From: Bacteroidota bacterium
GTDB lineage: Bacteria > Bacteroidota > Ignavibacteria > Ignavibacteriales > Melioribacteraceae
Assembly (NCBI GenBank): GCA_021812745.1
Contig: JAKAMS010000010.1
Span: forward strand, 1-17,542
Length of the DNA stretch: 17,542 nucleotides
Reading direction: 5' to 3'
Of this stretch, positions 7,834 through 8,224 are shown piece after piece (positions within the stretch are counted from its first letter, which is position 1; each line of letters starts with the position of its first letter). A model generated the notes under the pieces. The model was given only the letters and a program-made list of their open reading frames with translations. It was not told the origin of the DNA and did not search any database. A program made the translations under genes and the position numbers.

Positions 7834-7888
7834 GTGGAGCTAAACGGGTTCGAACCGATGACCTTCCCGATTTCATCGGGACGCTCTC
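7834..7888 (-). pseudogene. Truncated tRNA-Ala-like remnant (3' two-thirds)
   Basis: Bases 7834-7864 are identical to 8151-8181, the T arm, acceptor 3' strand and discriminator of the intact tRNA-Ala. Then comes a 17-nt anticodon-arm-like segment (7865-7881, TCCCGATTTCATCGGGA on the plus strand) in exactly the same slot as the real anticodon arm but with different stem bases, followed by the shared CGCTCTC (7882-7888, D-stem 3' part). Homology stops at 7888, so the acceptor 5' strand and most of the D arm are absent and it cannot fold as a tRNA. Read as an anticodon loop, the 17 nt would give GAA. It is the downstream copy of a direct repeat flanking the GIY-YIG gene. Confidence 0.85.
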
Positions 7889-8129
7889 TCTGTTAAAATT
7901 AATTCTTCAATATATTTTCTGTTTTTCATTCTCTTCAACTTTGTTCATATCTCACCGCTTCTCCTAGGGTTTGAAATTCTTGATGGTATGCCAACACCCA
8001 AGAGATTCCATGTTTTGCTGATTTTGAATACCCGGAATTGTGCTGATGGATTCTTCTTTCTAATGAATCAGTCTGACCAATATAAAACTTGTTTGTATTC
8101 TTACTTGTGAGGATATAAACCGAGTACAT
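7873..8129 (-). pseudogene. GIY-YIG nuclease gene with a -1 frameshift near its 3' end
   Basis: The intact part (8129 to the TGA at 7937-7935) encodes 64 residues with the GIY-YIG core: VYIL (4-7), FYIGQT (15-20), LERRIHQHNSG (23-33, catalytic Arg) and a late Glu in VRYEQ (residue 62). The family usually runs to 80-95 residues with an ExxLKxxKxRKYIExLI tail. That tail is present in the -1 frame immediately after the frame break at about 7941 (KLKRMKNRKYIEELI), giving a restored 85-residue protein whose stop (7875-7873) lies inside the tRNA remnant. No canonical slippery heptamer is seen, so a one-base deletion or sequencing error is more likely than programmed frameshifting. It starts 22 nt after the tRNA-Ala 3' end and has no Shine-Dalgarno site, so it is probably expressed from the tRNA transcript, if at all. 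Confidence 0.8.
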
Positions 8130-8151
8130 ACTAATTGAAGAGAGATAATTG

Positions 8152-8224
8152 TGGAGCTAAACGGGTTCGAACCGATGACCTCTTGAATGCCATTCAAGCG
8201 CTCTCCCAACTGAGCTATAGCCCC
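8152..8224 (-). tRNA. tRNA-Ala (anticodon GGC)
   Basis: The minus strand gives a full 73-nt cloverleaf: acceptor GGGGCTA (8224-8218) with TAGCTCC, D arm GCTC...GAGC, anticodon arm CTTGA-ATGGCAT-TCAAG with GGC at positions 34-36, T arm with GGTTCGAAC, and discriminator A. The acceptor stem contains the G3:U70 pair that marks alanine tRNAs. CCA is not encoded. The T arm and acceptor 3' strand are duplicated at 7834-7864. Confidence 0.97.

Follow-up and report, generated by a model that had tools for sequence, protein, structure and literature searches.

A decayed 317-bp insert that restores the tRNA-Ala gene it interrupts in a Bacteroidota bacterium and probably belongs to a family of minimal homing-type elements with a GIY-YIG nuclease as their sole gene

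In tRNA-targeting genomic islands and ICEs, an intact tRNA gene and a partial copy of it stand as direct repeats. Islands of this kind carrying attR-type tRNA fragments measure about 9-23 kb in the examples given in the part of the source available to us (PMC9897764). The locus described here is alike in its direct-repeat layout, but comprises only 317 bp, in which a small nuclease ORF is the sole gene and an integrase is absent. A second described system is SegB, a free-standing GIY-YIG homing endonuclease of T-even phages whose gene lies beside tRNA genes; according to the available sections of the source, it cuts within tRNA genes at the motif RAWTSGAAC, which we read as a T-arm sequence, needs recombination and drives the tandem amplification of units of tRNA and nuclease genes (PMC13096335). 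A GIY-YIG gene beside tRNA genes and tandem tRNA-nuclease units are both present in the elements described here; however, SegB is phage-borne, and the same sections report neither a restored tRNA half nor a disabled copy (PMC13096335). As SegB is likened by description only and the protein query P0001 is without a match in phage records, no kinship with SegB is assigned. A third system consists of the mobile endonuclease ORFs of fungal mitochondria with a carboxy-terminal duplication, described in the accessible portions of the paper for Allomyces atp6 and for Glomus atp6, atp9, cox2 and nad3, where, as here, a free-standing endonuclease ORF brings a replacement gene end and strands the native end downstream (PMC3630166). 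By the same partial account, these reside in protein genes, the nuclease in Glomus atp6 is of the LAGLIDADG type and the inserted end is foreign and diverged (PMC3630166), whereas in the elements here a tRNA gene is invaded, its 3' or 5' half is restored and the anticodon arm of the stranded copy is lost. Small GIY-YIG proteins of the UPF0213 type and the SLX1 nuclease domain share the same domain at a similar length, but their molecule names give no link to tRNA genes, the comparison being one of structure match and name. For the bacterial arrangement, no paper was found among the top-ranked matches listed from the open-licence literature of PubMed Central; in the part of PMC1564403 at hand, 'tRNA' occurs three times, never about gene neighbours.

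The window analysed here is a stretch of 17,542 nucleotides of the genome of a Bacteroidota bacterium, in which the original prediction had recognized, on the minus strand, a small GIY-YIG nuclease gene between an intact tRNA-Ala gene and a truncated copy of it. The parts of this locus are as follows.

8151-8224, minus strand: intact tRNA-Ala gene, anticodon GGC (ARAGORN and Rfam RF00005)
7865-8181, minus strand: 317-bp insert relative to the empty allele (alignment with L100)
8151-8181, minus strand: 31-bp tRNA 3' half, copy 1, which completes the intact tRNA (repeat and comparison with L100)
7834-7864, minus strand: 31-bp tRNA 3' half, copy 2, the native 3' end of the gene (repeat and comparison with L100)
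8130-8150, minus strand: spacer of 21 nt between tRNA and ORF, without a Shine-Dalgarno-like sequence (by eye)
7935-8129, minus strand: GIY-YIG nuclease ORF, 64 aa, shortened by a frameshift (PF01541, E=4.4e-14)
7876-7941, minus strand: C-terminal part of the nuclease as in relatives, in a different frame, 22 codons (homologues)
7882-7890, minus strand: D-arm stump of the remnant, 9 nt, GAGAGAGCG
7865-7881, minus strand: perfect hairpin TCCCGATGAAATCGGGA, TCCCG-ATGAAAT-CGGGA, at the place of the anticodon arm (covarying versions in relatives)
7808-7832, minus strand: native intrinsic terminator of the tRNA gene (hairpin and T-run), now 3' of the remnant
7235-7780, plus strand: HTH gene, the anchor for the comparable site
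8485-8895, plus strand: cytochrome-c-like gene, the second flank
8879-9343: DUF123 (PF01986) gene with a sub-threshold GIY-YIG match, adjoining the element

Several of these parts stand as originally predicted. Both ARAGORN and the RF00005 match confirm the intact tRNA-Ala gene on the minus strand, the direct repeat is perfect (31/31 positions identical, copies spaced 317), the PF01541 match bears out the small GIY-YIG gene between the repeats, a hairpin with a T-run is indeed found where a terminator was expected after the remnant, and inspection by eye revealed no AGGAG-like site before the ATG of the nuclease. Other claims needed correction. The spacer, given as 22 nt, is 21 nt long, and the remnant, which had been equated with the 31-bp repeat, is larger, with the D-arm stump and the hairpin preceding the 31-bp part. 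The gene was said to end in the remnant, which is true of relatives but not of the window, where the frame opened by the ATG has its stop codon at 7935-7937 and thus falls 44 nt short of reaching the stump. The proposed expression of the nuclease from the tRNA transcript would be consistent with the sequence at the window, since by eye no terminator lies between the tRNA and the ORF and the native terminator now follows the remnant; in the relatives L006 and L056, a terminator-like hairpin is located between tRNA and ORF. A group I intron in the anticodon loop was rejected, as scanning the window with Rfam at gathering scores detected nothing but the tRNA and this tRNA is contiguous. The DUF123 gene adjoining the element is present in relatives with the insert (L130, L131, L106) and in one without it (L100).

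The nature of the insert is revealed by comparison with alleles of the same site without a nuclease gene, whose existence in relatives had been anticipated and which were indeed found. Comparable sites were anchored on the HTH gene and searched for in 197 genomes of the class of genome G046 and 79 genomes of the family of genome G062. The best empty site, L100, has the same gene order as the window on both sides (identity to the window of 95% for the HTH gene, 87% for the cytochrome-like gene and 95% for the DUF123 gene), a plain tRNA-Ala gene, a matching terminator directly after it, as is also the case in the empty L103, and no nuclease. In the alignment, the window allele equals the L100 allele plus exactly 317 bp after tRNA position 43, such that positions 1-43 of the tRNA-Ala gene are native and positions 44-74 are part of the insert, with equivalent placements within the repeat. 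The insert comprises the new tRNA 3' half, the GIY-YIG gene, the D-arm stump and the hairpin replacing the anticodon arm. The unit is thus an insert in a tRNA gene that restores the half that its insertion cut off, and by supplying the lost half it leaves the host with a complete tRNA gene. This exact comparison of empty and occupied alleles supports the predicted minimal tRNA-targeting element of 317 bp; however, the invaded point is the anticodon arm, at the junction of positions 43 and 44, and not the tRNA 3' half that had been named as the target. Judged from the sequence, the 31-bp 3' half is the duplicated part, and placement of the cut site there finds no support. As in the mitochondrial ORFs, a replacement end of the host gene is supplied by the insert, but this end is neither foreign nor diverged, as it is 31/31 identical in the window and of a T-arm type that follows the locus.

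Annotation of 38 HTH loci (L100-L118 and L130-L148, the best matches) revealed 12 with a convergent tRNA-Ala gene, of which ten were scored together with the window. Unscored were L102, in which 282 of the 380 bases from tRNA to HTH gene read N, and L113, in which the tRNA is 1.2 kb away. In three loci (L101, L132, L133) the tRNA points the opposite way, L132 also having a GIY-YIG gene of its own, and 23 of the 38 are without a tRNA nearby, including L110 with GIY-YIG pieces. Five scored sites are occupied (the window, L130, L131, L138 and L106) and six are empty, namely L100, the sites L103, L135, L136 and L137, which match on the HTH side and of which L103 has a terminator of the window/L100 kind, and L107 with a 665-bp gap; gene order on both sides is confirmed only for the window, L130, L131, L100 and L106, the others being defined by the HTH gene and the convergent tRNA-Ala. 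On the HTH-gene tree of these 11 sites, at least four gains or losses are required, all forced by well supported branches, the occupied or empty state clusters no more than shuffled labels, and three close comparisons differ in state (L137/L138, L136/L106, and L100 versus the window and L130). Amino acid identity of the window nuclease is 48% to that of L130, 58% to that of L106 and 56% to that of L138 (43 residues), while the L130 nuclease shares 47% with L106 and 64% with L138 (42 residues), and only L130 and L131 have nucleases that appear similar (76% over 29 residues). Despite nucleases at 48%, the flanking DNA of the window and L130 is 86-91% identical. Comparable sites have hence repeatedly gained or lost the element, and with different nucleases. 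Exact deletion by way of the 31-bp repeat might also account for the empty sites, a point that weighs against spread by homing.

By eye, the junction of insert and tRNA lies at one place in the four occupied sites with the far end present. Between the two tRNA halves there is no difference in the window and L130 and there are two in L138, while in L106 an insertion interrupts the stranded half. The T-arm type tracks the locus rather than the lineage of the nuclease: the frame of P0063, which is 93% identical to the L130 nuclease, opens with translated tRNA-Ala of the window type (MAFKRSSVRTRLAP), and P0002, 73% identical to the window nuclease, opens with tRNA-Ala of the L130 type. The extra half therefore seems to be copied from, or converted to, the local tRNA. 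Due to this uncoupling of T-arm type from nuclease lineage, co-conversion with a foreign tRNA half, considered for L130 with a tRNA that differs from its closest relatives, was dropped as a general rule. A second pair of empty and occupied alleles, at tRNA-Cys, was discarded, since the contig ends at the match in G062. In L131 (2046-2426), the truncated nuclease is followed by what appears by eye to be a long fold-back, in which the end of the HTH gene recurs as an inverted copy around the terminator.

We consider it probable that the window holds a decayed copy of a large family of minimal selfish, homing-type elements whose sole gene encodes a GIY-YIG nuclease of 80-90 aa. In the window this gene is frameshifted, as the C-terminal part of the relatives lies in a frame other than that of the ATG ORF, where it reads ...ELILTERASR and then TGA inside the hairpin; in relatives such as P0004-P0007, the GRASR end is reached in one frame, and the window copy is probably dead. 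Five residues that we take to be those expected of a GIY-YIG enzyme, with a catalytic role (Y5, Y16, G18, R26 and E62), are invariant in 33 relatives. The AlphaFold2 model of 84 aa consists of one compact domain (pLDDT 88), whose nearest solved chains are the UPF0213 protein BH0048 and SLX1 (PDB 1zg2, 1ywl, 7cq2), 1zg2 matching with E=1.4e-12 over 73 of the 84 positions. These 84 aa contain no added DNA-binding domain, which counts against the homing reading; I-TevI-type enzymes differ in having one. A profile search at E<=1e-3 retrieved 472 proteins, and among the 120 matches listed, 18 end in remnant-type sequence (such as GRASR) and five open with translated tRNA 3' ends; the organism names, given for a minority of the listed matches, are mostly Ignavibacteria(les) or Bacteroidota MAGs, plus Rubrolithibacter, from which an Ignavibacteria-like host may be guessed for the window.

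The median dN/dS of 0.09, with a maximum of 0.22 (24 pairs from different loci with at least 72% DNA identity, no stops and unsaturated dS, about half of them with dS above 1.5, near saturation), indicates strong purifying selection on the nuclease. Such selection, along with patchy presence and a position at tRNA genes, classic integration sites in the available part of the source (PMC9897764), would also suit a host-useful gene that guards the tRNA locus, for example against integrative elements that attach at tRNA 3' ends or against foreign tRNA genes, and passes among strains in the manner of defence genes. This we hold to be unlikely, as the insert brings no second gene and the half-restoring architecture, dead copies, tandem arrays and decayed copies fit selfish spread better. 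For the selfish element, a cycle of gain, decay and loss would lead one to expect broken genes at occupied sites, and the gene is broken in three of the five, frameshifted in the window and L138 and truncated in L131.

Copies at other tRNA loci, whose absence, like that of empty sites, had been named as refuting the original prediction, are likewise present beside many tRNA genes. In the family of G062, copies (match E<=1e-12) are carried by 70 of 79 genomes, and the 90 loci examined, namely the 30 best matches and 60 picked roughly by rank from the matches listed, gave after removal of five duplicates a non-random set of 85 clusters. A called tRNA lies within 500 nt in 74 of these, always on the same strand (74/74), at a median tRNA-nuclease gap of 21 nt and with 15 anticodons, among which those for Ser, Pro, Asp, Asn and Cys are the most frequent, and a second, partial tRNA copy accompanies it in 68 of the 74; two of the tRNA calls (L152 and L198) hold the TCCCG..CGGGA hairpin, that of L152 being probably a remnant, and without them the figures become 72, 66 and 15 anticodons. 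The remaining 11 clusters are without a tRNA within 500 nt, six of them near a contig edge. In 56 of the 74 clusters the tRNA is upstream of the nuclease and in 18 downstream, the latter in a mirror-image form with a 5' piece of the tRNA upstream (for example L180; 13 Ser, 4 Arg and 1 Asn). This mirror-image form suggests that the break point inside the gene matters, and not the 3' end. At least two GIY-YIG segments, most of them 300-500 nt apart, are found in 25 of the 85 clusters.

Tandem arrays of this kind, and remnants without a nuclease gene in the stretch examined (L055, L059, L062, L064 and L067), are in line with a by-product of recombination, in which tandem tRNA duplications captured a host-type GIY-YIG gene and spread without nuclease-driven homing. 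With 74 of 74 on the same strand, 15 anticodons, purifying selection on the protein and different nucleases at comparable sites, such an origin is quite improbable, and the homing-type family remains the preferred reading. Its relatives extend to the phylum of G007 (the genome of L010, Candidatus Yanofskybacteria), with copies in 51 of 78 genomes and, among 42 loci, 30 within 500 nt of a tRNA, of which all 30 share its strand and 15 show a partial copy. G008, a genome in a single contig, has only three of its 11 copies near a tRNA, and thus not all relatives are of the tRNA-adjoining type. An Rfam scan of 20 loci, nearly all without an adjacent tRNA, placed three directly before another structured RNA gene on the same strand, two upstream of RNase P RNA (L013:3001-3602 and L251:1501-2388) and one upstream of tmRNA (L081:808-1434), and the targets may include structured RNAs beyond tRNAs.

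On a tree of 128 nuclease copies with a tRNA neighbour, 33 isotype changes were counted as compared to 85.7 in shuffles (0 of 200 as low), with many forks unresolved and some labels wrong where ARAGORN called a remnant (L007, L152); this clustering can partly reflect shared descent and near-copies. Best matches outside Patescibacteria, in a comparison that left out other or unknown phyla (L003, L013, L017, L022, L024, L051, L052), agreed in isotype in eight of 32 cases, against a mean of 3.8 in permutations, 38 of 2000 of which reached eight, and agreed in polarity in no more than 13 of the 32, and target-specific lineages common to several phyla, a proposal from the Ser clade, were set aside as weak in this test. 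Among the searches made, the elements were found on bacterial contigs, chiefly of Bacteroidota and Patescibacteria. As a single-sequence query, P0001 matched none of 50,697 phage records (E 1e-5) and no plasmid record, and hence no vector was seen; a scan of viral contigs gave four weak partial matches, a viral scan with the window's Maf-like protein found nothing, and carriage by phages or plasmids was rejected.

The tRNA copy left behind is dead, and the anticodon arm of almost every stranded copy is missing or broken. In the family of G062, 64 of 68 partial copies have no uninterrupted anticodon loop, the other four keeping the loop and 3 bp on each side; the T loop is kept in nine and the D loop in 11, and none is near full length. 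The D, anticodon and T loops together account for 140 of 230 breakpoints, which peak behind the TTC of the T loop, where the D loop ends and at the anticodon, fragments below 12 nt being excluded; as short matches can be missed, these counts are approximate. The Ala-type copies read have TCCCG-N-CGGGA in the position of the anticodon arm. The chance expectation for TCCCG-N2..16-CGGGA is 0.02 per window, and four of 200 shuffles reach one. For the longer pattern GAGCG-TCCCG-N3..16-CGGGA-AGGTC, a search of 394 genomes from the phylum of G008 gave 25 occurrences, spread over 15 genomes, as against none for the reversed control, and among 25 distinct inner sequences (loci and window) pair 1 is complementary in 24, pair 2 in 23 and pair 3 in 11 of 15. 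TCCCG..CGGGA palindromes exceed reversed-pattern controls in all 12 of 12 genomes (326 versus 14 in G031, 40 versus 4 in G046, 57 versus 32 in G307), and being dispersed elsewhere in the same genomes they show that the hairpin also occurs outside the element; its use as a distinguishing mark of the elements was ruled out.

Three side observations concern such hairpins and stranded copies. At L278:1501-1516, the palindrome TCCCGACTTGTCGGGA, of which G046 has several copies, seems by eye to lie inside an RNase P-like RNA gene. In L055 (1480-1700), L059, L062, L064 and L067, hairpin-bearing tRNA remnants, single or in tandem (period 72 bp in L055 and 218 bp in L067), adjoin intact tRNAs, and the stretch examined contains no nuclease gene, like non-autonomous derivatives. 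Stranded copies of L067, L069, L060 and L106 contain extra, unrelated T-loop insertions just after GGTTC or GAGTTC.

A variant of the homing-type reading would assign a function to the hairpin, in that the co-transcribed tRNA-derived remnant, with hairpin and target-derived sequence, guides the nuclease. It would make sense of a single-domain nuclease of 84 aa, of a stem kept by covariation (24/25, 23/25 and 11/15) and of an ORF whose 3' end overlaps the hairpin in relatives (18 among the 120 matches listed). Nonetheless we deem it very unlikely, given that the remnant is upstream of the gene in the mirror-image elements, that hairpins often interrupt the tRNA-derived part and that like hairpins are dispersed through genomes, one apparently inside the RNase P-like RNA of L278. 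Just as improbable is the broader notion of widespread specialists for structured-RNA genes (tRNA, tmRNA and RNase P RNA), with a nuclease aimed by the co-transcribed, hairpin-bearing dead tRNA copy. Least credible is a relic of site-specific integration, left over from larger islands with the tRNA 3' half as attachment site, for although the 31-bp repeat resembles attL/attR, the 317-bp insert has no integrase gene, a mirror-image form exists (tRNA downstream in 18 of 74, for example L180) and the compact architecture recurs at 15 anticodons. An integrase-type island was likewise rejected, the insert holding only the GIY-YIG ORF.

As a minimal homing-type element, the unit would operate through a nuclease that cleaves tRNA genes free of the element, within the anticodon arm or close beside it, after which host recombination would copy the element in from an element-bearing copy with the conserved tRNA body as the homology arm, which would explain the choice of tRNA genes. 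The dead copy would stay uncuttable due to the replacement of its anticodon arm by the hairpin, tandem arrays would arise from further breaks and recombination, and the gene would decay and then be lost once the site is fixed, as seems to be under way in the window. Against homing counts that the intact tRNA of the occupied allele still holds the presumed cut site. Because cleavage is deduced from sequence and the loss of the target in the occupied allele is only partial, the unit is classed short of a proven homing element.

The presence of related inserts beside many tRNA genes suggests an overlooked kind of minimal selfish DNA, whose genes are named in annotation, if at all, 'GIY-YIG nuclease family protein' or 'putative endonuclease'. 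If this reading is true, it would explain a class of odd partial tRNA copies, and it would become testable how a nuclease of 84 residues that lacks a DNA-binding domain selects a single tRNA gene yet leaves the rebuilt tRNA uncut. Elements of about 300-400 bp would then be entering and restoring the tRNA genes of many bacteria over and over, and half-restoring homing, known from fungal mitochondria, would also take place on bacterial chromosomes and in essential RNA genes.
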